The translations under genes were made by a program, and so were the position numbers. A stretch of 64,000 bases of DNA from Calothrix sp. PCC 7103 (GTDB lineage Bacteria > Cyanobacteriota > Cyanobacteriia > Cyanobacteriales > Nostocaceae), in contig NZ_KB217478.1 of assembly GCF_000331305.1 (NCBI RefSeq), positions 8,463,481-8,527,480 of the forward strand, in the 5' to 3' direction. The notes beneath the pieces were generated by a model. It was given only the letters and a program-made list of their open reading frames with translations. It was not told the DNA's origin and ran no database searches. Below are positions 2,019-13,068 of the stretch, piece by piece; the stretch's first letter is position 1; each line of letters starts with the position of its first letter.

Positions 2019-2846
2019 TTATCTTATGGGGAAGTTGGATGCATTTTCTTGTAAGATTTTGAGTTCTCCGAGAATTGGTTTGTTTGCTAAATTTTTTAAT
2101 CCGACATTAGTTAATAGGTTTTGCCAGTCTTGCTGGAAGGTTGTATTTTGTGGTTCGGCAATACGAAGTAAAGCTAACTCGCTCAATGTTGTGTACCATA
2201 TACCATTTTGAGCATATGCTGCAATTTTTGCTCGTGGTGTGGTGGCAGCTTTTAACTGTTGTTCTAATTTTACATCGGGCGCCACTCTTTTGAGTGAACC
2301 GCTAACAAAGCTAGGGATAGATGATTTAGATGTAGTATTGTTTTGGCAATAAAGCTTGAAGTACCATGTGTAATTTTTATTAATTTCTAAGCGTTTTGAT
2401 GTCTTTAATTTCAGACTAAAAATACCAGGTTGAGTCGGTACAGGAAACGAAGTTCGCATAACGTCGTTTTTTTCCTCATCTTGCAACGAAAACTCACCTG
2501 CTGATACTTGATTTGATTTAAAAGGTATGTAAAACCATAAAGTCGGATTTTCTTCTATTACCAACCCTGAGCGATTATTCGGTATTAAAGCTTCTAATGG
2601 CATTTCTACAGATGGACAGTCACCACGACTACCAGTTCCCTTTCTGCCACCAGGTCTACCTTGGCTTGAACCATCTGGCTCATTCGTATTAAAATGAATC
2701 GGTCTACTATTACTATTCGCGACTTGATTAACTTGTGCAATTGCGGGCATAAAATATGACACACACATCAAACTAAACAAGTTAATAGTGACGTTTTTAC
2801 AGCTTTTTAGACAAAAGCTTTTCAGTATTTTCTGTAAAGGCATCAT
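2019..2846 (-). CDS. Secreted DUF928 domain protein
   Basis: 275 residues. A basic N-terminus and a hydrophobic stretch (about 18-36) ending in MPAIAQ look like a cleaved signal peptide, so the protein should act outside the cytoplasmic membrane. DUF928 hallmarks follow: a Gly/Arg-rich linker, GDCP, then LEALIPNNRSGLVIEENPTLWFYIPF, and a later KNYTWYFKLYC. DUF928 is a cyanobacterial family of unknown function, frequently encoded beside CHAT/CHASE2 genes. Here it follows the CHAT-CHASE2 gene by 106 bp in the same direction and is likely the last gene of that module. The role is inferred only from context. Confidence 0.8.
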   Translation of the reverse strand: MMPLQKILKSFCLKSCKNVTINLFSLMCVSYFMPAIAQVNQVANSNSRPIHFNTNEPDGSSQGRPGGRKGTGSRGDCPSVEMPLEALIPNNRSGLVIEENPTLWFYIPFKSNQVSAGEFSLQDEEKNDVMRTSFPVPTQPGIFSLKLKTSKRLEINKNYTWYFKLYCQNNTTSKSSIPSFVSGSLKRVAPDVKLEQQLKAATTPRAKIAAYAQNGIWYTTLSELALLRIAEPQNTTFQQDWQNLLTNVGLKNLANKPILGELKILQENASNFPIR

Positions 2847-2952
2847 AGTATGAATTTATACTTTTTGCTTTGCATTTGTCTAAGTAAAGAAATACATCTG
2901 GTTCTATACTTTATCTGTATTTAAACATGATTTTATACATAATGATTCAATA

Positions 2953-5316
2953 TCACGAAGAAACCCGGTTTCTATAGACTTTCAAACTTGCAGTGCTTCC
3001 TAACAAAACCAGCATCGATGGTACTAGGGGTATCCAAATACCTAATATAAATATGTAAAGACAAACACCATAAAGCACTCCGCAGCTAATCACTGCCGTC
3101 AAAATTAGGCGCCATGTTGATTGTATAGTTAAAGCTATTGTTGCTCCGACTAAAGCCCACGACCATATCCAGATATATTCGCTCCATTTTGGCAACACAT
3201 TCAATAAGGGACGATTATTTAACACTGCACTCAGAATTTGACTAATCATATGTGCTTGCACAACTACACCCGCAATTTGAGAGTGAGGCCATTTTCCTTT
3301 TGTGTAAGGTGTAGACCAACGCAGGTCATTAAAGCTGTCGGCAGTTGTACCAATGAGAACTATACGATTTTTAACTAAATCTAAAGTTAATTTGTCATTT
3401 AGTACGTCTTGGACAGTCAATGTTCTGACATATGGATTAGCAGCACGCCAGTTCAATAGTACTTGGTGTCCTTGATTATTTATATTATGATAGGCGCCAC
3501 TGTTTGATTCTAAGTTATAAAAGACTTTATTACCAATAACTAAATTTTTGTCTGGAGTCAGCTTGGAAACAATATTTTTATCAGCTAGATAACGGGTAGC
3601 AACTCGGAAACTAAAAGATTTATCTGTTTTACATTTGGCGTTAGAAGCAGATGGAGGCGCCATTGCTAGCAGGTGACGACGTAAAATAGTGTCGGGGTCA
3701 GGGACTACATCAGTAAAACCAAGACTTTTTTGTAAAGTCTCTGGTGGTGGTGGAACTCCTGGGTCTGTATTATCTTCACCACCTTTACAAACAGCGATAA
3801 AGTTATCACTTTGCATGATTGCTGCTAGGTTCTGGAAATTAGCTTCCACTGGGTTCTCTCGATAAAGGTCTAAACCTATTACACGAGGTTTGAATTGCTG
3901 TATTTTTTCCATAACATTAGCAAGAGTTCTGTTAGATAAAGATAACCCTCGTCTTTCTTGGGGATTTTGAGCTTGAACATCTGCTTCTGTCACCGTTATA
4001 ACTATGATTCGATTATCGGGTTTTTCAGCAGGACGACTACGCATAATTTTGTCGAAAGCTGAAAGTTCCCATGACTCCATAATTCCAGTGCTGCGTACTC
4101 CTACTGCTACACCAGTAACCAGTAAACTGACTTGAAGTAATGCTGTAAATAAAAACTTTCTTGGTAAATTAGGTTTGTATACAAAAGATTCGCTTCTCCA
4201 AATCAATGGTGCTGCTGCTGGGTTTTGACATATTACAGGCAACCAACTCGCACAAGGATATTCATCTTCTAATCCTTGTAACCTTGCTTGTGCTTCTCGC
4301 ACCGACATATACAAAGACTTACCAGTTGCAAATGCTTCGATAAAATTCTTTAAAAACGCTTGGGCAATAATATCTGGAACTGGTTCACGCATTACTATAA
4401 TTTGCGGAATGTGTAACGATGCCAAATCACGTGCTAGTCCAAGACCGTCACACGAATTAAATATAGCTAGACTTAAACCGTTAGATAACGCTGCCCGTAA
4501 ACCGTTTTTTAGTTGCGAAATCGTTAAAGTATCTGTTTTGTTTATTTGAATTGTGCCCGTTTCGCCATCCGATTGACTAGAGCTATGTCCAGCGAAAAAA
4601 ATTATATCCCATCCTTGCTTATCCCAAAGCCAGTAATCTAATTCTCTACGTTTGGGTTCTACTAAAAATACTGTTTGTGCGTTTGTAAGCTCTAATATAG
4701 CTCGGTCTTTTTCTACGTCAATTCCTTCACTGTTTCCCAAAATTGCTAAAATCCGCATTGGAATATTTGGATTTTTTACACTTGGTTGAAGATATTCAAA
4801 TTGCGAAGTACTCAGACAAACTACTGCGCTGACATAATCTTCAAAAAAATCCCACAAATGCCAGGGTATTTTTCGAGCTTCTTCGTCTTCTGTCTCGAAT
4901 ATAAATTTTATCTCATCACTCGGCGCCAGTTTTGTGCGTAACTTCTGATTAACGTGTATAAATGATAAAGATTTAAACCATAAATTAATATGATACTCTA
5001 ATTCTTCACACAAGCTACTGAATTCCATTAAGGAAACATTTGTAACATCTTCTTCTTCAACCTCTACGTCAAAATCATTGGTGAGAATGTCATCATTTCT
5101 TAACTTTCGCCAACTTCTATCGTGGTAAAGCGCTTCGTTAAGTAAACAATAAAGTAGCTGCCAACGTCTATATGACTCAGAAATTTCTGGAGCAGCAGGC
5201 AAACTCCCAACCATTTGTGTTGGTGCGTTTGTATTTTCCCATAGTTGAATTGTAACAGTCGAAAAACCCTGTCTGAAATTACCCTTACCTAAATTTAATA
5301 CTACTAACTTATTCAT
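2953..5316 (-). CDS. CHAT-CHASE2 membrane protein (putative caspase-like sensor protease)
   Basis: 787 residues. The cytoplasmic N-terminal half ends in a CHAT (caspase-like) domain of about 185-370 with an apparently intact dyad: His244 in FFAGHSS and Cys289 in FNSCDGLGLA. One membrane helix follows (about 386-408), then a CHASE2 extracytoplasmic sensor domain (about 411-690, beginning SWELSAFDKIMRSRP), and two or three closing helices (about 712-778). In ordinary CHASE2 proteins the output domain follows the last helix; here it comes first. The start overlaps the upstream DUF1822 stop by 4 bp (ATGA), so translation is likely coupled. The last residues (RNRVS) are encoded by a family B palindrome that runs into the gene. 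Substrate and ligand are unknown. Confidence 0.85.
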   Translation of the reverse strand: MNKLVVLNLGKGNFRQGFSTVTIQLWENTNAPTQMVGSLPAAPEISESYRRWQLLYCLLNEALYHDRSWRKLRNDDILTNDFDVEVEEEDVTNVSLMEFSSLCEELEYHINLWFKSLSFIHVNQKLRTKLAPSDEIKFIFETEDEEARKIPWHLWDFFEDYVSAVVCLSTSQFEYLQPSVKNPNIPMRILAILGNSEGIDVEKDRAILELTNAQTVFLVEPKRRELDYWLWDKQGWDIIFFAGHSSSQSDGETGTIQINKTDTLTISQLKNGLRAALSNGLSLAIFNSCDGLGLARDLASLHIPQIIVMREPVPDIIAQAFLKNFIEAFATGKSLYMSVREAQARLQGLEDEYPCASWLPVICQNPAAAPLIWRSESFVYKPNLPRKFLFTALLQVSLLVTGVAVGVRSTGIMESWELSAFDKIMRSRPAEKPDNRIIVITVTEADVQAQNPQERRGLSLSNRTLANVMEKIQQFKPRVIGLDLYRENPVEANFQNLAAIMQSDNFIAVCKGGEDNTDPGVPPPPETLQKSLGFTDVVPDPDTILRRHLLAMAPPSASNAKCKTDKSFSFRVATRYLADKNIVSKLTPDKNLVIGNKVFYNLESNSGAYHNINNQGHQVLLNWRAANPYVRTLTVQDVLNDKLTLDLVKNRIVLIGTTADSFNDLRWSTPYTKGKWPHSQIAGVVVQAHMISQILSAVLNNRPLLNVLPKWSEYIWIWSWALVGATIALTIQSTWRLILTAVISCGVLYGVCLYIFILGIWIPLVPSMLVLLGSTASLKVYRNRVSS
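2959..2973. repeat. Family B palindrome inside the end of the CHAT-CHASE2 gene
   Basis: AGAAACCCGGTTTCT, a 15-bp palindrome of the dispersed family B. It lies in the last codons of the CHAT-CHASE2 gene and encodes part of its C-terminus. Confidence 0.85.
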
Positions 5317-6551
5317 GGCGACTTGCCAATAAGTGCATCAAGCATGAAATCCTCTTTTATAATGACATCTTGTAACACCAATTGAATACTAAAAGATTTT
5401 CCTAAAGGAAACTTAAATCTTTTCAATTGGATGTAATTGTCATGGTTTCTAGAAATAACTTCTTGAACAACAGCTCCTGAAGGCAACAGTAAGGAAAGTT
5501 TTATACTTGCAGGTAAGTAATATTCCTCATTCGTAGGATATAGTTGCACGCGAATGTTTACTTTGTCATCTATCTCAGGTGATAACCCAATTAATAGTAC
5601 AACAGCCTTATTACCTAATTGCATTCCTAAATCGATTAATTTGGCGCCTTGAGTACGATGAGTCAAAGCAGCATCCTGTCTAAATTGAGCAGCTAGAGTT
5701 CTTTGCTGTAGATTTAACAAAGCATCTATATGCTGCCAACCAGTTTCAAAAATGTCTTCTAACCATAGAGTTAAATTAGTTAAGTTAGTAGATTTAGGCT
5801 GAATAGTATTACTGAGTTTATTGACTCTAAATTTGTATAATTCTTGCCTCAGTGTGTTGGATGCAATCAAAGCACTCCACTCGTCAAAATTTCCATATAA
5901 ACGGGGAGAGTGGATATTTGACTGACTTAATATATTTAGTAATTGTATTGCTTGTGCATTTGAGGTTGTTAATAAAGGTTTGAAGTGTAATTGTTGTTGA
6001 CAGTACTCACGTGCAACCCACATCACATTTAAGTCTTCAATAAGAGACTCTCTTTCTAGACAGTATGTTTTAGTTATTTGGTTGAATGTTGCATACTTGG
6101 TAAGTTGCTCGTGGGTTGTATATCCCCATACTCGTAACCAAGATTGTTCTAGATTTAACTGTACATGTAAATAATATTCTCCAGCCCAATCGGGAATATT
6201 AACCCATTCCGCTGGAACTTCAAATTCCAATGGATTGCTTTTATCGCTAGGTATTAATACTAATTTAGTATTATCAACATTAATTGCACATCCGTTGACT
6301 ACTTCCCAATACGTTACTAAATCATCCAAACTGGAAATTTTAATGACGTTACTAAATTCTGGGTTGTCCTTTAACCAATTTGAAAATGTATTGAGAGATA
6401 GATAATTTAAAAAAGCTCGCCATCGTGCAGCATCAGTAGAATAATATTGTGAATAAATTTGTTTCCAGGCATCTTCTTGTGCTTGGCTTGATAACTCTAA
6501 CCACAATTGGTTAGGATAAATGGTTTCTAACTCACTCAAATTATAGCTCAT
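5313..6551 (-). CDS. DUF1822 family protein (module 1)
   Basis: 412 residues, soluble, with no signal or membrane helix seen. DUF1822 is a cyanobacterial family of unknown function. The central motif LTLWLEDIFETGWQHIDALL (about 253-273) and the C-terminal part (DLGMQL..., YLPASIKL, DNYIQL, FSIQLVL) match the second DUF1822 protein of this window at 9148-10317 segment by segment, so the two are paralogues. The start overlaps the upstream sigma-like gene by 11 bp and the stop overlaps the CHAT gene by 4 bp; all three must be one transcript. The context suggests a regulator or partner of the sigma-like protein or of the CHAT protein, which is inference. Confidence 0.75.
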   Translation of the reverse strand: MSYNLSELETIYPNQLWLELSSQAQEDAWKQIYSQYYSTDAARWRAFLNYLSLNTFSNWLKDNPEFSNVIKISSLDDLVTYWEVVNGCAINVDNTKLVLIPSDKSNPLEFEVPAEWVNIPDWAGEYYLHVQLNLEQSWLRVWGYTTHEQLTKYATFNQITKTYCLERESLIEDLNVMWVAREYCQQQLHFKPLLTTSNAQAIQLLNILSQSNIHSPRLYGNFDEWSALIASNTLRQELYKFRVNKLSNTIQPKSTNLTNLTLWLEDIFETGWQHIDALLNLQQRTLAAQFRQDAALTHRTQGAKLIDLGMQLGNKAVVLLIGLSPEIDDKVNIRVQLYPTNEEYYLPASIKLSLLLPSGAVVQEVISRNHDNYIQLKRFKFPLGKSFSIQLVLQDVIIKEDFMLDALIGKSP

Positions 6552-8004
6552 ATGATTTTGCTGTATGGTTGCACGTAGTACGATGAGTATTTCTATGTAT
6601 TAGCCAGTTATCAATAAAAATAGCTAGTTTATTTTTTACTACATCTAAAGCATTTACGCCCAGTTGTATACTTATCTCTAGCTCTTCTTGAAAAGCATTT
6701 ATTAATTTTTGTTTGATTTGATTATCATTTTCAATATTATTGAAAGATATGTTATCAACAATCTTGATTCGAGCAACTCTATCTAGAGTATTGAAAAACT
6801 CTTGCTGAGTATATACCTGTAGACAATCGTTCATAGCGTCTTTAATCGCTTCTATATTTTTGTCCTCATATACCTTAACCTCTGGGGAGTACTTCTGCCA
6901 CTGGTAAATTAGGCTAGCTAATAAAGTTTTTGTATATTTTCCTAAATGGCGGGCAACTTGATACTGTTTTTGTATTTCTGTATATTTATTAGTAATGGCG
7001 CCTGCGATTTCAGTTTGAGTCAAACCTAAACCATGCCAAAGCTTAAGCATTAGTTGCCCTTGTTCAGGTAACGCCAAAAATAGTTCTTTAATCAAAGATT
7101 GTATTTCTTGCCATTCTTCGTGTTGAATTAAATTTTCTAAAAGACTTGAATTACAATCAGTAATATTGATTTGCTCATCAAGAGGCGAAAACTGTTTGGT
7201 ACGATAATTGCGTGCAGCTTCAATACAAGTTGAAAGAATATTTTGAACTTGTGCAACAGATTGGCTTGTTAATTTAAATTCTTGGCAGCGCTGATTATAG
7301 CAAGATGTAATTTGCTCAATTTGCAAACTTTCTTCTGAACCAAACGTGCGATTAGCTGGCTTATTCAGATAAATTTCATCAAAACATTGCCAAGCCAAAT
7401 AATAAGAATTGATATTGCTGTGATTAATACCTCTTGCCAATAAAGCTTCTTTAAGCTCCTTAGCCGTTAAATCTTTAAGTAAACCGTAATCAGTAAACTT
7501 ATCCCTTTTTGCCTCAATATCTTGAGTATAGATTAAATTACCAGTAAAACGTAAAATAGCTGTTTTTGCATAAGCATTTAAATTCGCTTGAGGATGCTCA
7601 ACATCAAAAGTTTTAAATAACTTTTCTGGTGGGTTAACAGCCAAATTAGCTATTTGAAACAACTCCGGGAGTGGATACTTGTGCCGAATAAAACTAAACC
7701 GTTGGAAACTCTTATATGCCGCCCACAAACAAGCTTCTTGTAAATAAGATGATAAATGCCCCCTGGCTTTAACAAAACAATCCGGAGACAAAGATACCTG
7801 CTGCACAGCTTGATTTACCTTAATAATTTTAAGAAAATAGTGTGCCCAGTACTCTGCCTTAAGCTCCGATTCACTTTGCATCAATCTTTTCATATTGCGT
7901 TCCAACTGTAAATCAGTCTTCCACAATACATTTAGGCGTTTATTAACCCCCTCAAGCATCAAAAATGTCGAGAATTTTTGTATAGTGTCGTCACGTTTCT
8001 TCAC
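6541..8004 (-). CDS. Sigma-70-like protein (module 1)
   Basis: About 487 residues. A perfect GGAGGT at 8011-8016 (minus strand), six bases before a GTG at 8004, decides this start over the ATG at 8025. The C-terminal third carries a sigma region 4-like segment: LPEQGQLMLKLWHGLGLTQ then EIAGAITNKYTEIQKQY, at about 308-355, where a proliferation-type helix precedes a helix-turn-helix. The N-terminal half is long, helical and has no easily recognised region 2. It is larger than usual ECF sigma factors. Large sigma-like proteins encoded with DUF1822 partners occur in cyanobacteria. It is first in a tightly overlapping operon with DUF1822 and CHAT-CHASE2. Whether it directs RNA polymerase is untested. 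Confidence 0.65.
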   Translation of the reverse strand: MKKRDDTIQKFSTFLMLEGVNKRLNVLWKTDLQLERNMKRLMQSESELKAEYWAHYFLKIIKVNQAVQQVSLSPDCFVKARGHLSSYLQEACLWAAYKSFQRFSFIRHKYPLPELFQIANLAVNPPEKLFKTFDVEHPQANLNAYAKTAILRFTGNLIYTQDIEAKRDKFTDYGLLKDLTAKELKEALLARGINHSNINSYYLAWQCFDEIYLNKPANRTFGSEESLQIEQITSCYNQRCQEFKLTSQSVAQVQNILSTCIEAARNYRTKQFSPLDEQINITDCNSSLLENLIQHEEWQEIQSLIKELFLALPEQGQLMLKLWHGLGLTQTEIAGAITNKYTEIQKQYQVARHLGKYTKTLLASLIYQWQKYSPEVKVYEDKNIEAIKDAMNDCLQVYTQQEFFNTLDRVARIKIVDNISFNNIENDNQIKQKLINAFQEELEISIQLGVNALDVVKNKLAIFIDNWLIHRNTHRTTCNHTAKSYEL

Positions 8005-8010
8005 ATTTAA

Positions 8011-8016
8011 ACCTCC
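8011..8016 (-). promoter_or_regulatory. Consensus Shine-Dalgarno that sets the GTG start
   Basis: GGAGGT on the minus strand lies 6 bases upstream of GTG 8004. It would lie inside the coding region if the ATG at 8025 were used, so the GTG start is preferred. Confidence 0.75.
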
Positions 8017-8130
8017 ATGCACCATTCTCTATAATACTCGTGTATTGAACAGCAATTTCGCCCTCAACCTACTTATGGGCGCCATAATTAATAGAATATG
8101 CAACTTTCTCAAAATTTGCGTAAAAACTGG

Positions 8131-8157
8131 CAACGGATGTAACGGATGTAACGGATG
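8131..8157. repeat. Family D tandem nonamer (TAACGGATG)3
   Basis: Three direct copies of YAACGGATG in the divergent spacer between the two sigma-like modules. The spacer (8026-8371) also holds a family B hairpin and a GGCGCC at 8319. I see no gene in it; a minus-strand frame across it is just translated repeat. Confidence 0.85.
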
Positions 8158-8163
8158 TTGACA

Positions 8164-8230
8164 AGAAACCGGGCTTCTTACCAAAGATTTTGCTATAAGA
8201 CGTTGATTTGCCTACAGAAGCCCGGTTTCT
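8164..8230. repeat. Family B paired hairpin element
   Basis: AGAAACCGGGCTTCT (8164-8178) and its exact complement AGAAGCCCGGTTTCT (8216-8230) face each other across a 37-bp loop. This copy carries a matching G-to-A type change in both arms (GGCTTCT / AGAAGCC), so the pairing has been preserved. It sits between the start codons of the two divergent modules and may separate their promoters. Confidence 0.85.
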
Positions 8231-8371
8231 TTTTTCTTTAAGTTTTGTAAAGAATTTCAATTTTGCATAAAACCCCCTAACTTGTGCAGAGAAGTAATGG
8301 TAGGTAAAGCCTTTGGGTGGCGCCTGCGTATATTAAGTACAAACACTGATATATAGCTATAGATTATTACT

Positions 8372-9112
8372 ATGATGACCTTTGATGAAACCCAGACTCC
8401 ATCCAACGAGACTCCTTCTCAGCTACAAAAATTAGCAATACAAGCTCAAAACACTCTTGCAGGAAGTCCACAAAGACATCGTGCATTAACTCTGTTAATT
8501 CAAGAACTGTGGAGACAACCAACGTTTGGAATTTTGAGAAAAAGCCTCAGAACAAAATATGGCAATTTGTCGAATGGTCTTTTTGAAGACTTATTCAACG
8601 ATGCACTTCAAGAAACATTTATTGCAATTAGCCAATATATTGACAGGTATGACCCCCAAGAACCATTACTGCCATTAATTTGCACAATTATCCGCAATAA
8701 ATATAGCAATCTGTACAAAAAGCATTGCAAATACGGCGTTACACGTATTCCTAAGTTCATAGGCAATCAGAATTCAAAGCAAGGTCAGGTGATATCTTTG
8801 GATGGATTAGATGAGTTTGTGCAAGATAATATCATGAGCAAACACTTCTCAAATTCTTCCGGTAAGTCAATATCTAACTGTGATGTATTAAGGGAGTTAT
8901 TAATTGATGACCCAGACAATAAGTTCAAAGTATCCGTTAGAGATAAGCCTGATATCACTTTTCAGTATATAGCCATATACTTATACGTCCAAGGAAGAAA
9001 CATGCAACAGCTAGCTTCGGAGCTAGATATTTCTTACCAAACTCTAAATAGCTTTTTTAAAAGAAACTTAGAGAAACTAGAGCCATATTTTCGAGAAAAA
9101 CTACAGCATTAA
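8372..9112 (+). CDS. Sigma-70-like protein (module 2)
   Basis: 246 residues; ATG at 8372 or 8375. A region 2-like helix ALQETFIAISQYIDRYDP followed by PLICTIIRNKYSNLYKKH (about 90-128) resembles the core-binding and -10-recognition helices of small sigma factors. The C-terminal segment MQQLASELDISYQTLNSFF (about 211-230) is a helix-turn-helix like region 4. It is shorter than the module 1 protein and only distantly similar. It is first in an operon with a DUF1822 gene 35 bp downstream, mirroring module 1. Probable ECF-like regulator; function inferred from motifs. Confidence 0.65.
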   Translation: MMTFDETQTPSNETPSQLQKLAIQAQNTLAGSPQRHRALTLLIQELWRQPTFGILRKSLRTKYGNLSNGLFEDLFNDALQETFIAISQYIDRYDPQEPLLPLICTIIRNKYSNLYKKHCKYGVTRIPKFIGNQNSKQGQVISLDGLDEFVQDNIMSKHFSNSSGKSISNCDVLRELLIDDPDNKFKVSVRDKPDITFQYIAIYLYVQGRNMQQLASELDISYQTLNSFFKRNLEKLEPYFREKLQH

Positions 9113-9147
9113 TTTATACAGTACTTAGAAACTATTAAGGAGCGATA

Positions 9148-10317
9148 ATGAATACTACAAATACTGCTGACGCTTTAACTTTTACAGTACCGCTTTCTTT
9201 TGAAGCGCATTCCCTAGCTCAAATATATAGTAAACAGCAAAATCGTGCTGATCGAGCGAAGCAAGTATACTTAAATACTTTAGCAATATACGCAGTTGAG
9301 CATTATTTTAAATGTATGGGTTTTGCAACTAACTGGGAAGGTAGTGATAGTCGCAAACCAATAGTACAGAAGTTTTTAGATATTGCCGATTTAAACGTTA
9401 GAGGTATGGGCAAATTTGAATGTCGTCCAATATTACCAGGCGCCGACATATTAGAAGTACCATGTGAAGCATGGGATGAGCGCGTTGGTTATGTTGCAGT
9501 ACAATTGACTCAATGTTTAAAACAAGCAACACTAATAGGTTTTATATCGCAAATAGCAGACAACGAAGGAAGCATACCATTAAATCAACTGCGCGCGTTT
9601 GATGAATTTCCAGAATACTTAAATCAACTAAAAACTAAAAGCACCACACTCACATCATCCACATCACCACAACTTGTAAATTTAGAAGAATGGCTAAATA
9701 ATATTATTGAAACTAGCTGGCAAACAGTAGAAGAATTTTTTAGCGCTCAAACATATAGCATGGCTTTCAGGCATCGTGGTATTATCTCAGAACAGATAAA
9801 CCCTAACGATACTAGCAGCCTCAAAGAATTTATTAGCACTTTATACACAAATCAACGCTTCGGCAACTCAACACAAAAAACTTATCCTGCTGACTTAGAA
9901 CCACTATCAGCATTAACTCAACTTATCGAGTTAACTCAAGACGACGAAACTCGCTGGAAAGCAGTTGAGCTTTTATGGAAAATAAACCCCAAACATCCAT
10001 CTGCCGCAATTAGACAAATTACAGATTTAGGAATGCGCTTGGCAGGATACTCAATCGCCCTCATGGTAGCTATATTACCAAAACTTGACGGTAAAAGAGG
10101 CATTCTTTTACGAGTTTACCCAATGGACAATCAAGCATTTTTACCCCAAAACCTCAAATTAGCCGGTTTTGATGAAAATGGTAAAACACTACTCGAAGTT
10201 CAAGCACGCGAGCAAGACAATTATATTCAATTCAGATTCAATGCTGACCGAAAAGACAAATTCAGTGTTCAAGTATCCCTAGGTGAAGCCAGCATCACAG
10301 AATATTTCAGTGCCTAA
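9148..10317 (+). CDS. DUF1822 family protein (module 2)
   Basis: 389 residues, preceded by AAGGAG at 9137-9142. It is paralogous to the DUF1822 protein of module 1: LEEWLNNIIETSWQTVEEFF (about 171-190) corresponds to the LWLEDIFETGWQHIDALL segment there, and DLGMRLAGYS, VYPMDNQAFLPQNLKL, EQDNYIQF and KFSVQVSL match in order. No membrane helix is seen. It follows a sigma-like gene, and the facing CHAT gene (10426-13068) ends 108 bp beyond its stop on the opposite strand. That gap holds family C and E repeats. Function unknown; it shares gene context with module 1 but not strict operon order. Confidence 0.75.
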   Translation: MNTTNTADALTFTVPLSFEAHSLAQIYSKQQNRADRAKQVYLNTLAIYAVEHYFKCMGFATNWEGSDSRKPIVQKFLDIADLNVRGMGKFECRPILPGADILEVPCEAWDERVGYVAVQLTQCLKQATLIGFISQIADNEGSIPLNQLRAFDEFPEYLNQLKTKSTTLTSSTSPQLVNLEEWLNNIIETSWQTVEEFFSAQTYSMAFRHRGIISEQINPNDTSSLKEFISTLYTNQRFGNSTQKTYPADLEPLSALTQLIELTQDDETRWKAVELLWKINPKHPSAAIRQITDLGMRLAGYSIALMVAILPKLDGKRGILLRVYPMDNQAFLPQNLKLAGFDENGKTLLEVQAREQDNYIQFRFNADRKDKFSVQVSLGEASITEYFSA

Positions 10318-10330
10318 CATCCTGTAACAT

Positions 10331-10361
10331 ATCTTGTGGAGCGGGCATCCTTGCCCGCCCT
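10331..10361 (+). repeat. Family C dispersed hairpin
   Basis: ATCTTGTGGAGCGGGCATCC followed by TTGCCCGCCC. The arms GCGGGCA and TGCCCGC pair. It lies 13 bp after the DUF1822 stop and may serve as a transcription end between two convergent genes. Confidence 0.8.
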
Positions 10362-10400
10362 TCAAAAATTATACTTTACTGTTGTAGTGGCGCCGTTTAT

Positions 10401-10430
10401 GTTGGGTTCAGTTCCTCCACCCAACCTACA
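10401..10430. repeat. Family E repeat supplying a stop codon
   Basis: Inverted GTTGGGT (10401-10407) and ACCCAAC (10419-10425), continuing as CTACA. On the minus strand the element begins TGTAGGTTGGGT, and its TAG is the stop codon of the CHAT/binding-protein gene. A short relative, TTGGGTTTCACCCAA, is at 31225-31239. Confidence 0.75.
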
Positions 10431-13068
10431 GTTTTTCTTCGATGAAGTTGCAGGGGGAGTCTTTGTCGCATTGTACTTTTACTAGTACTCCAACACGGTT
10501 GTCACTGCTAACAGGTTTTCTACTGCCTTTTTCTTGTTGAGTGTCAAATTGAATTTTTGCAACGGCGCCTTCTGCTGTAAAATTATCTAGGTTGTTGAGT
10601 ATATTGTCTCTGAGTAGTTGACGAGTGGGTTTTTTTGTAATTGTGCTTAAACCTTGACTAATTACTTGTACTGCATCGTAGGAAGTAACCGTAATCCAGT
10701 TGATTTTTGCACCACCCCAAAGTTTATCAGCTTCTTTCTCGAATTCAGATAAATTGGCAGGTGATTCACTTCTTTGCCAGGGTACTGCTGTTATTAACTT
10801 AGTTTGTTTTGCTCTGGAGCCAAAAGTTTGATTTAGTGTAGCTGGACTATATAATGTACTGGCACCTAATAATATTAAGTTATTATTTGGGGTGTTAGAA
10901 GCTTCTTTAAGTACTTCTAACCCTTTATTTAAAACATCTTCTATACCAGAAGGAGCTAGTAATAGTACATTAGCATTATTTTTTATGGCTCCATTAATAA
11001 TTTGTTTGGTGCTATCTGTTTTCAAGTCGTATATAGGTATATTTTGTTGATTCGCAATTTTGATAAATTTGTCTTTGATTGATTCGCTATAAGATTCTCC
11101 TCTATCATATGCTATTACTGGTTTTATTGATTTTGATGGAATTTTTGTGAGTATATACTGATATAAATTTGTGACTGCAATAGAATCACTTGTAACTGTG
11201 CGAAGAATCGGATATGATGAGTTACTTAATTCGGTAGATGTACTTGTAGGGGAAATAACAAGAATATTATTCATGTATCCTAAATTTACAGCAGCTTTAG
11301 TCAGTTCACTTCTGTAATGCCCAATAACTGCAATAATATCTTGCTGGTTATTATCATTTGCGATTTTACTCGCTACTTGTGTTGTTGTTGAATGGTCATT
11401 GCCGTCATTTACTATTTTTACTTGTAACTGTCTGTTATTAATGCTATTTGTACATGTTGGAGTTTGATTGCTTTGGATAGGTTGTACAATTTTGTCTACG
11501 CTACCACAGTTAATTTTACTTTGAGCATGAGCAATACCACGTAAGATTTCTTCCGCAACGTTTGGGTTTTTAGTGATGGGGACACTAACTGCAATGTGCA
11601 GACTATCTTGTTTTGTGTTTGCTACAATAGCGTTATTTAGGTAAATTAAACTTTCTGGGTCGTTGGGAGTTTGATTTAATGATTTTTTAAATGCATTAAT
11701 CGCTAAGTTCCATTCTTGTTTCTGAAAAGCAATTGCTCCTTCTTGTTTGTGTGGGTTTCTTTTCAGTAATATTTTCTCTCCTCTACTAAAAAGGTTATCA
11801 AGACTTTGACTCTGAAGCTGTGGTACTGGTGTTTTACCAAGTGTTGGAACAGGTGGTGTTGATGATGTAATTATTTGTTTGATTATGATAGCTGCTAAGG
11901 CGCCTACTAATACTAAGCTTATAAGTGTTGCAACTTTGTGTGAATGCCAAAGTCTACTTACACCACGTTTAATTTTAATATGGATAGGTTGGCGCCAGTA
12001 TAGTGCCCTTTCAGCAGGGTTTTGACAAATTACAGGTAGCCAAGATGCATAAGGGTACAAATTTTCTATATCTTCTAATTTTTCCTGTGCTTGTCGTACA
12101 GAATAGTGAAACTTTTCCCCTCGCGAAAATAAACGTAAAAATTCTTGTAAAAACTCCTTGGCAACTTCATCTGGTACTGGTTCACGCATGACGATTACCT
12201 GCGGAATACCAAGTTCGGTAAGTTTGTTCGCTAACCCTAACCCGTCACACGAGTTAAAAATTGCTAGTTTTAAACCGTTATCTTTAGCTTTGATGAAAGC
12301 ATTTTTTAAATCTTTTAATGCTGGACTATCTATATTATTAAGCTGAATGACTCCATCGTTGCCATTGTTAGAAGTGCTGCTGTGTCCAGCAAAGCATAAA
12401 ATATCCCATGAACCAGTACGTAATTTATCACATAGTTCTTTTCTACTTGGTTGTTTTAGCTGTTCTACCTTTGAACCTGGTAAATTTCTGAGTATTTTTC
12501 CATCTGTACGAACATCAATCCCGTCATCATTACCTAAAACTGCTAAAATTTTAACTGGCGTTTGAAGTGGTTTCGATGCTAGGTTATATTTGGCGCCTAG
12601 CGATAACCAAGCTCTTTTACGATTTTGAAACAATTTCCATAAATGCCAAGGAAGCTTTTTTAAAACTTCATCGTTTGTCTGAAAAATAATCCGTGCTGAC
12701 TCATTTCTAGCTACTTCTTCTTCGACATATACACGTAGCTGTCCCATTGATGGATGCTCAAACCATTGTATCAATCTATCTTCGAGCGCTTTACCTGCTA
12801 CTCGACATTGGTCTGGAGTCGATACGTTGGTTGTTTGGTCTGGGTCTACGTCAAAACCTCTCGCAGAACTAATAACTCGTCGTACCGCATCTAAATTATT
12901 ATAATTTCGCTGAAATTCATTATACAGTCGAGGAATATCCGGCGCCGCTGGAAAATGCCCGACTTCTTCTTTATAAACACCCCCACTCTCTTCTCTGATT
13001 CGCAGGGTAACTGGAAAACCTTCCTCAAAATTACCACTGGCGATGGTAAATATAACTACCTTGCTCAT
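10426..13068 (-). CDS. CHAT domain fused through a membrane helix to a periplasmic binding protein
   Basis: 880 residues in four parts. The CHAT domain occupies about 170-355, with His229 in CFAGHSS and Cys274 in FNSCDGLGLA. One membrane helix lies at about 378-400. A short TPR-like segment (about 436-484, KQEWNLAINAFKKSLNQTPN) follows. A type I periplasmic binding-protein fold of the Leu/Ile/Val receptor kind fills about 490-865 (starting HIAVSVPITKNPNVAEEILR). The CHAT part is clearly paralogous to the module 1 CHAT-CHASE2 protein (shared IPQxIVMREPVPD and ASWLPVICQNPA). The likely layout is a cytoplasmic protease and an outside ligand sensor. It is convergent with the module 2 DUF1822 gene rather than co-transcribed. 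Ligand and substrate unknown. Confidence 0.85.
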   Translation of the reverse strand: MSKVVIFTIASGNFEEGFPVTLRIREESGGVYKEEVGHFPAAPDIPRLYNEFQRNYNNLDAVRRVISSARGFDVDPDQTTNVSTPDQCRVAGKALEDRLIQWFEHPSMGQLRVYVEEEVARNESARIIFQTNDEVLKKLPWHLWKLFQNRKRAWLSLGAKYNLASKPLQTPVKILAVLGNDDGIDVRTDGKILRNLPGSKVEQLKQPSRKELCDKLRTGSWDILCFAGHSSTSNNGNDGVIQLNNIDSPALKDLKNAFIKAKDNGLKLAIFNSCDGLGLANKLTELGIPQVIVMREPVPDEVAKEFLQEFLRLFSRGEKFHYSVRQAQEKLEDIENLYPYASWLPVICQNPAERALYWRQPIHIKIKRGVSRLWHSHKVATLISLVLVGALAAIIIKQIITSSTPPVPTLGKTPVPQLQSQSLDNLFSRGEKILLKRNPHKQEGAIAFQKQEWNLAINAFKKSLNQTPNDPESLIYLNNAIVANTKQDSLHIAVSVPITKNPNVAEEILRGIAHAQSKINCGSVDKIVQPIQSNQTPTCTNSINNRQLQVKIVNDGNDHSTTTQVASKIANDNNQQDIIAVIGHYRSELTKAAVNLGYMNNILVISPTSTSTELSNSSYPILRTVTSDSIAVTNLYQYILTKIPSKSIKPVIAYDRGESYSESIKDKFIKIANQQNIPIYDLKTDSTKQIINGAIKNNANVLLLAPSGIEDVLNKGLEVLKEASNTPNNNLILLGASTLYSPATLNQTFGSRAKQTKLITAVPWQRSESPANLSEFEKEADKLWGGAKINWITVTSYDAVQVISQGLSTITKKPTRQLLRDNILNNLDNFTAEGAVAKIQFDTQQEKGSRKPVSSDNRVGVLVKVQCDKDSPCNFIEEKL

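Follow-up and report, generated by a model that had tools for sequence, protein, structure and literature searches.

In a 64,000-nucleotide stretch of the Calothrix sp. PCC 7103 genome (contig NZ_KB217478.1, positions 8,463,481 to 8,527,480; hereafter the window), two neighboring modules each combine genes for a sigma-like protein, a DUF1822 protein and a sensor protein with a CHAT protease domain. We propose, with a probability of about one half for the explanation as a whole, that in these modules a sensor would activate CHAT, CHAT would cut DUF1822, and the cut would release a sigma factor. The sensor domain would gate the cytosolic CHAT cysteine protease within one polypeptide, giving one signaling line per module; the input of module 1 would be received by CHASE2 aided by a periplasmic DUF928 protein, and that of module 2 by a periplasmic binding protein domain. 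DUF1822 likely binds the sigma factor encoded directly upstream and would hold it inactive. When the sensor fires, CHAT would cut DUF1822 after a hydrophobic-Arg pair in the linker, at the junction of the N-terminal and Ig-like domains, and the freed sigma factor would switch on its target genes. The analysis established the gene content and linkage of the modules, the sigma folds of module 1 (by model and profile), the conserved protease dyad, the exchange of proteases and sensors, and the conserved linker motif; the binding, the cut and its site, the gating by the sensor and the outcome are inferred.

The sigma-DUF1822 pair and the proteases beside it

Two sets of loci (given as L numbers) were collected for comparison. 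The CHAT-anchored set consists of the best 80 among 558 confirmed loci and is hence non-random, and the 80 DUF1822-anchored loci were taken by score down to about E 3e-52 with the source genome excluded, one place (G093) being skipped and another merged into the stretch of its neighbor. Twenty DUF1822 genes of the source genome enter the counts over all loci (169 distinct proteins of 170). A sigma-like gene lies directly upstream of 139 of these 170 DUF1822 genes, and the 140 sigma-DUF1822 pairs have a median gap of 15.5 nt, with 33 of them overlapping. No open reading frame matched both profiles as a natural sigma-DUF1822 fusion. In locus L093 (6088-7971), immediately before a CHAT gene, a single protein joins a LuxR/sigma4-like HTH to a TRADD-like N domain and DUF1822, and it forms a bridge between the TRADD-N and DUF1822 forms of the system.

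A protease of one of four kinds was found within 5 kb in 60 of 79 usable DUF1822-anchored loci (one anchor was lost to a length filter), the nearest being of the EACC2-CHAT kind in 47, the TPR-CHAT type in 6, C14 in 4 and trypsin in 3; the profiles for the last three were built from genes first noticed beside DUF1822. The matches are concentrated near the anchor, with 82 inside 4 kb (628 kb of sequence) vs. 3 farther out (426 kb). Beside the sigma-DUF1822 pair, Pfam identified TPR-CHAT proteins in L011, L114, L117, L118 and L119, a C14 caspase is present in L009, L025, L111 and L113, and a trypsin-TPR protein in L161 and L162, while L019 has both a trypsin-TPR protein and CHAT. Because four protease kinds alternate beside the same pair, sigma and DUF1822 form the constant core, to which the protease looks like an exchangeable input.

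The coupling among the three proteins was assessed by partial correlation in the loci with long-class (n = 58) and short-class (n = 41) sigma factors. The sigma-DUF1822 correlation given CHAT was 0.65 in the long class and 0.42 in the short class, and that of DUF1822 and CHAT given sigma was 0.62 and 0.69. The sigma-CHAT correlation given DUF1822 was 0.01 in the long class (95% bootstrap interval -0.17 to 0.19) and 0.16 in the short class (-0.09 to 0.37); an earlier run with different filters gave 0.05 and 0.21, and equalizing the column numbers altered the partial correlations little. Both sigma-CHAT intervals include 0, and the partial correlations place DUF1822 between sigma and CHAT. Distances within the source genome (12 modules, two divergent ones left out) gave a sigma-DUF1822 agreement of r 0.82; for L016, L020, L023 and L024, this test took the gene upstream as sigma, although in L020, L023 and L024 its sigma matches are marginal or absent. 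Sigma and DUF1822 are firmly coupled in both the all-loci and the within-genome tests, DUF1822 and CHAT in the all-loci test alone.

Both sigma-like proteins of the window match TIGR02937 below its cut-off (8.5e-9 and 2.3e-7), and the 494-aa protein of module 1 has no Pfam match. The family profile of the latter matches regions 2 and 4 of sigma factors with solved structures. The long-class alignment took in 75 of 79 long sigmas, and the sigma profile used on the loci leaves out L028, which has ankyrin-like repeats by eye, and four divergent rows. The sigma assignment of the earlier note holds for module 1, whose models show sigma folds, and module 2 was judged on its sequence alone; by profiles and models, both genes probably encode sigma-70-type proteins with regions 2 and 4. 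The CAS_III-E_sigma model gave 20.2 bits with the module 2 sigma and 27.2 and 22.6 bits with two paralogs, its cut-off being 100 bits. An autoregulatory promoter was considered and rejected: 17 aligned upstream regions yielded a single recurring block, TGTAGTAAA, to which we give little weight because 34 of its 47 occurrences in the loci are distant from any gene start on that strand and the 7 found 32-71 nt before long-class sigma genes (L109:5572, L110:5585, L112:5632, L115:733, L116:9484, L121:5604 and L012:8769) are mostly orthologs. At these 7 places the block, sometimes with GAAAC about 20 nt ahead of it, may be a promoter element.

The DUF1822 linker as a candidate cleavage site

In the AlphaFold2 model of DUF1822 (mean predicted local distance difference test score, pLDDT, 88.4), the N-terminal domain is mixed and the C-terminal one is Ig-like; a helical insert occupies residues 222-280 and is shared by about 13 of 128 rows. 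Since Pfam gave no TPR match and the model shows a mixed and an Ig-like domain, DUF1822 was rejected as a TPR protein. A hydropathy scan found no hydrophobic segment in either window copy. The interdomain linker varies in length, and its residues 201-210 have a mean pLDDT of 51.

The DUF1822 alignment covers 128 of the 162 eligible proteins (L026 was left out of the DUF1822 and short-sigma profiles). At linker position 208, 114 of the 127 aligned rows have Arg and 6 have Lys, and it is the sole basic column among the 16 that are conserved in at least 85% of rows; among 63 representatives sharing less than 50% identity, it is Arg in 54 and Lys in 3. The hydrophobic-Arg pair occurs in 105 of 128 linker windows vs. 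26% of control windows, the linker window having been picked post hoc. It stands 11 to 27 residues past an invariant Trp, mostly 16 to 19, and this variable spacing would be the behavior of a short linear motif.

The residue at this position was also sorted by the nearest protease. Beside EACC2-CHAT it is Arg in 88 and Lys in 2 of 97 copies, three of the seven exceptions (L014, L015 and L091) having an Arg close by and being apparently misaligned. It is Arg in 7 of 7 copies beside the TPR-CHAT type and in 3 of 4 beside C14, with Ala preceding the Arg in all three C14-linked copies that have the motif. The five trypsin-linked copies have Arg in one and Lys in four (L019, L158, L161 and L162). 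Both shifts involve few, partly related copies and were noticed late in the analysis; a Lys beside trypsin and Ala-Arg beside C14 would be expected of a recognition site. Metacaspases and orthocaspases cut after basic residues, and the characterized members of the C14 group outside the true caspases do so after Arg or Lys (PMC5756287). The linker Arg, R208 in module 2 and R291 in module 1, is the candidate cleavage site, and we give about even odds to the prediction that the cut falls there.

Sensors, DUF928 and the arrangement of the modules

The CHAT proteins share a constant N-terminal module with CHAT, which was confirmed by Pfam, by the dyad and in an 18-row alignment. The first ~110 residues are alignable across the paralogs and may form the alpha+beta domain EACC2, a label borrowed for them from Kaur et al. 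(2021). All 152 sequences that cover both columns, out of 155, keep the His and Cys of the dyad, among them both window copies (Table 1), as the earlier note had claimed. The accompanying parts vary: CHASE2 forms the C-terminal part in 9 of the 16 paralogs scanned, nSTAND1 is found in L019 and L022, NACHT in L017 and L027, and WD40 in L020 (among the matches listed), and in L026 pentapeptides precede CHAT. Together with the binding protein of module 2, this makes the exchange of sensors, previously read from the two window copies, real and wider than supposed. The membrane tethering proposed at the same time is supported for the window copies, which have hydrophobic segments at residues 389-407 (module 1) and 382-400 (module 2) in the hydropathy scan; the STAND and WD40 copies fall outside that support.

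In the source genome, 20 of 22 DUF928 genes have a CHASE2 gene no more than 2.5 kb away, against a mean of 0.36 and at most 4 in random placements. The CHASE2 proteins so accompanied include three histidine kinases (L189-L191), an adenylate/guanylate cyclase (L192), a CHASE2-only protein (L193) and CHAT proteins; the domain scan covered L189-L193, and the proteins of L194-L197 are similar in length to that of L193. DUF928 lies downstream of 74 of the 98 CHAT proteins with CHASE2 vs. 1 of the 28 without it (126 with room for the gene; rows non-independent), and the partial correlation of DUF928 with CHASE2 given CHAT is 0.55, that with CHAT given CHASE2 being 0.25 (n = 73). Because the CHASE2 linkage holds across different outputs, DUF928 tracks the sensor rather than the protease. 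Five of 8 DUF928 copies passed a threshold near the N-terminus that measures hydropathy and is not a signal-peptide prediction. DUF928 is likely a general periplasmic partner of CHASE2.

All seven genes of the modules were confirmed by an open reading frame check at the coordinates given beforehand (Table 1), and we regard the two neighboring modules and their parts as settled. Module 1 reads leftward from 8025 as sigma-like, DUF1822 and CHAT-CHASE2 genes followed by DUF928; the overlaps at 6541/6551 (sigma-like/DUF1822) and 5313/5316 (DUF1822/CHAT) agree with the overlapping minus-strand genes described earlier and suggest that the three form a coupled operon. Module 2 reads rightward from 8372 as sigma-like and DUF1822 genes, which the CHAT-binding-protein gene faces. 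This facing arrangement is indeed convergent and is atypical, as CHAT lies downstream on the same strand for 123 of the 128 DUF1822 genes with CHAT nearby, convergently for 2 and divergently for 3. The paralogy of the modules, also noticed earlier, was recovered by phmmer in a small local set for the CHAT parts (E 1.1e-79 and 5.9e-80) and the DUF1822 pair (E 3e-19 and 1.8e-18). The sigma genes of the two modules stand head to head with ~350 bases between them, and Calothrix sp. HK-06 (L029) has an equivalent pair at a spacing of ~1.4 kb (open reading frames 3128-3877 on the minus and 5301-6773 on the plus strand); a contig of HK-06 encodes the module 1 CHAT protein at 95% identity. None of the seven module proteins matched a known defence system in PADLOC.

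The source genome of 11.58 Mb contains 22 places with DUF1822, of which two are short remnants, 22 strong EACC2-type CHATs, 29 CHASE2 and 22 DUF928, so that more than a dozen sets related to the window modules, with differing sensors, are found in it. DUF1822 lies within 5 kb of 18 of the 22 EACC2-type CHATs, and CHAT within 5 kb of 17 of the 22 DUF1822; the linkage is beyond chance, since 2000 random placements gave a mean of 0.5 and a maximum of 4. CHAT, DUF1822 and sigma-like genes are also widely neighbors outside this genome, in line with the conserved neighborhood that the earlier note had anticipated. DUF1822 matches occur in 102 of 146 sampled genomes of the phylum, about half of them being weak partial matches in one small-genome family; in the small genomes of this related lineage, several partial matches are to the N-terminal half, in frames of ~500-1300 residues. 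Two further DUF1822-CHAT sets lie to the right of the window at 8547555 and 8586345 (20 and 59 kb past its edge) and make up, with the window modules, a local cluster of four. Locus L018 (3639-10731) has DUF1822, CHAT-CHASE2 and DUF928 without sigma, with a TPS-secretion-domain gene in front, and L017 (7922-13038) has one sigma-DUF1822 pair followed by tandem EACC2-CHATs, one with an OEP-like end and one with NACHT.

Table 1. Features of the two modules (window coordinates)
Feature	Position	Strand	Basis
DUF928 protein, N-terminus hydrophobic and resembling a signal peptide; likely partner of CHASE2 in the periplasm	2019..2846	-	Pfam DUF928 E 2.9e-59; hydropathy; CHASE2 linkage
Module 1 sensor protease: conserved N-terminal part + CHAT, transmembrane segment, CHASE2	2953..5316	-	Pfam CHAT 7.3e-14, CHASE2 5.7e-61; dyad H244/C289; hydrophobic segments
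CHASE2 domain, residues 401-725 of module 1 sensor protease	3142..4116	-	Pfam
Module 1 DUF1822 protein, 412 aa; proposed sigma-holding substrate	5313..6551	-	Pfam 2.8e-80
R291 codon, candidate cleavage site AAQFR/QD (cut at slash), module 1 DUF1822	5679..5681	-	Linker motif alignment
Module 1 sigma factor, long class, 494 aa	6541..8025	-	TIGR02937 below cut-off; structure model; family profile
Divergent intergenic region between the sigma genes of both modules	8026..8371	.	Open reading frame coordinates
Module 2 sigma factor, short class resembling extracytoplasmic function (ECF) sigma factors, 246 aa	8372..9112	+	Sequence profiles
Module 2 DUF1822 protein, 389 aa; proposed sigma-holding substrate	9148..10317	+	Pfam 1.5e-78; AlphaFold2 model
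R208 codon, candidate cleavage site SMAFR/HR (cut at slash), module 2 DUF1822	9769..9771	+	Linker motif alignment
Module 2 sensor protease: conserved N-terminal part + CHAT, transmembrane segment, Peripla_BP_6	10426..13068	-	Pfam CHAT 4.5e-16, Peripla_BP_6 3.5e-12; dyad H229/C274; hydrophobic segment
Periplasmic-binding-protein domain, residues 543-847 of module 2 sensor protease	10528..11442	-	Pfam

Alternative mechanisms and known systems

Several results weigh against release of sigma by cleavage of DUF1822. In 19 of the 79 DUF1822-anchored loci, all four kinds of protease are missing from the 5 kb around the anchor, and all 12 DUF1822 copies with full flanks and no such neighbor retain the Arg (as do 3 of 3 with short flanks), which opposes a site read only by the neighboring protease; as these loci keep it, the Arg may have a different function or be read by a protease in trans. 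Among the 12 modules within the genome, the DUF1822-CHAT agreement was r 0.24 (reached by 107 of 5000 permutations), below the sigma-CHAT value of 0.39 (31 of 5000), and these values oppose DUF1822 as a hub; with the two divergent modules included, the agreements were 0.76 for sigma-DUF1822, 0.59 for DUF1822-CHAT and 0.41 for sigma-CHAT. Since the chain of partial correlations equals the gene order, chromosomal recombination could give it, and similar numbers could arise if the three genes had one history in common and DUF1822 traced it with the least noise. A comparison of DUF1822, mainly its Ig part (residues 288-389), with Csx30, the sigma inhibitor of the CRISPR Craspase, and with anti-sigma proteins gave no match among the rows listed, so that a Csx30 homologue found no support. 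Moreover, no single residue is required for the cleavage of Csx30 by the CHAT protease Csx29 (PMC10028731), hence CHAT enzymes need not be Arg-specific.

For neighborhoods of this kind, Kaur et al. (2021) published an autoactivation scheme in which CHAT would sever its own link to the sensor, after which either the released protease or the sigma would act downstream, with DUF1822 as a scaffold. The joining of protease and sensor in one polypeptide suits this scheme, which we consider unlikely: the post-core CHAT columns 346-375 have no conserved basic residue (R/K at most 0.33 in 18 rows, basic residues alone considered), unlike the DUF1822 linker, and column 345, basic in 0.83, lies inside the CHAT match and so outside that stretch. 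Autoactivation would also leave the constant sigma-DUF1822 pair, which is seen with other protease types as well, without a role. Quite improbable, in our judgment, is sigma as the CHAT substrate, destroyed or activated, with DUF1822 as an adaptor joining both. An adaptor would be expected to sit where DUF1822 does, between the other two in both the gene order and the partial correlations, and within-genome sigma-CHAT distances agree somewhat, but the direct sigma-CHAT coupling is near zero across all loci and the low-confidence linker of the long-class sigmas (residues 274-312) has no conserved basic column (at most 0.17 in 75 rows). The earlier proposal that CHAT cuts DUF1822 or the sigma-like protein is narrowed by these alignments to DUF1822 as the better candidate.

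Retention of the Arg in loci lacking a protease would also fit a docking or binding motif for sigma, CHAT or RNA polymerase, with a conformational switch in place of cleavage. The dyad kept in every complete CHAT sequence, the substitution of unrelated protease classes for CHAT beside the same pair, and the change of the basic residue to Lys in 4 of 5 copies beside trypsin-type genes all argue against such a switch, to which we assign slender odds. Sensor-gated cleavage of DUF1822, if true, would provide a function for DUF1822 and probably also for DUF928, would extend the Csx29-Csx30-sigma logic to general sensing, and would let the expansion in this genome explain how one cell wires many sensors to separate transcription programmes. 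It yields a single-residue prediction, R208 or R291.

In the regulated proteolysis of RseA and RsiW, a signal leads to cleavage of the anti-sigma factor and release of sigma, as proposed here; there the anti-sigma spans the membrane, whereas DUF1822 has no hydrophobic segment and the protease bears the sensor. Bell et al. reportedly carried out a Nostoc ECF sigma/anti-sigma study in 2017. HetF is a CHAT-family protein. In Anabaena, HetF is able to cleave PatU3 (PMC12288457), and is thus likewise a cyanobacterial protease that can cut a negative regulator, in that case of differentiation; the partner differs, and the available part of that paper describes no sigma factor. A search of open-licence literature for CHAT, anti-sigma and caspase in cyanobacteria matched an unrelated review alone. 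Within this literature, DUF1822 is named in Kaur et al. (2021) and in a Tolypothrix genome comparison that lists it, DUF928 in a paper on WD40 proteins, and EACC2 in Kaur et al. (2021) and two papers on unrelated matters.

The kind of system is already known, because the EACC2-caspase/sigma/DUF1822 triad was predicted by Kaur et al. (2021, eLife; PMC8195603). These authors described a constant N-terminus of EACC2 and a caspase-like domain with a variable C-terminus including CHASE2, found sigma and DUF1822 genes in most TRADD-N-independent neighborhoods, termed DUF1822 a TPR protein and proposed autopeptidase activation. The loci studied here have the same gene set, a variable sensor or repeat C-terminus and adjacent sigma and DUF1822 genes. 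They differ in that DUF1822 is modeled with mixed and Ig-like domains and gives no TPR match, in that proteases of several kinds alternate next to the constant sigma-DUF1822 pair, and in the presence of DUF928; the available text of that paper has no mention of DUF928, anti-sigma or Csx proteins.

The evidence points to a resemblance with the type III-E CRISPR Craspase (Cas7-11, Csx29, Csx30 and CASP-sigma), in which the TPR-CHAT protease Csx29 cuts the inhibitor Csx30 and so relieves CASP-sigma (PMC10028731). A locus of either system holds a CHAT protease, a sigma factor and, as its third member, a protein of two domains, and TPR-CHAT is present in some of the related loci (L011, L114 and L117-L119). 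The sensor is fused to the protease here, whereas an RNA-guided complex serves there, and a DUF1822-Csx30 relation was not detected in the comparison of mainly the Ig part. We suggest tentatively, at somewhat less than even odds, a general CRISPR-independent form of sensor-gated anti-sigma proteolysis, with more than a dozen parallel lines per cell, each having its own sigma and a DUF1822 anti-sigma cut at the hydrophobic-Arg pair, with swappable sensor-proteases and with DUF928 shared by the CHASE2 sensors, of which Craspase would be a specialized example.

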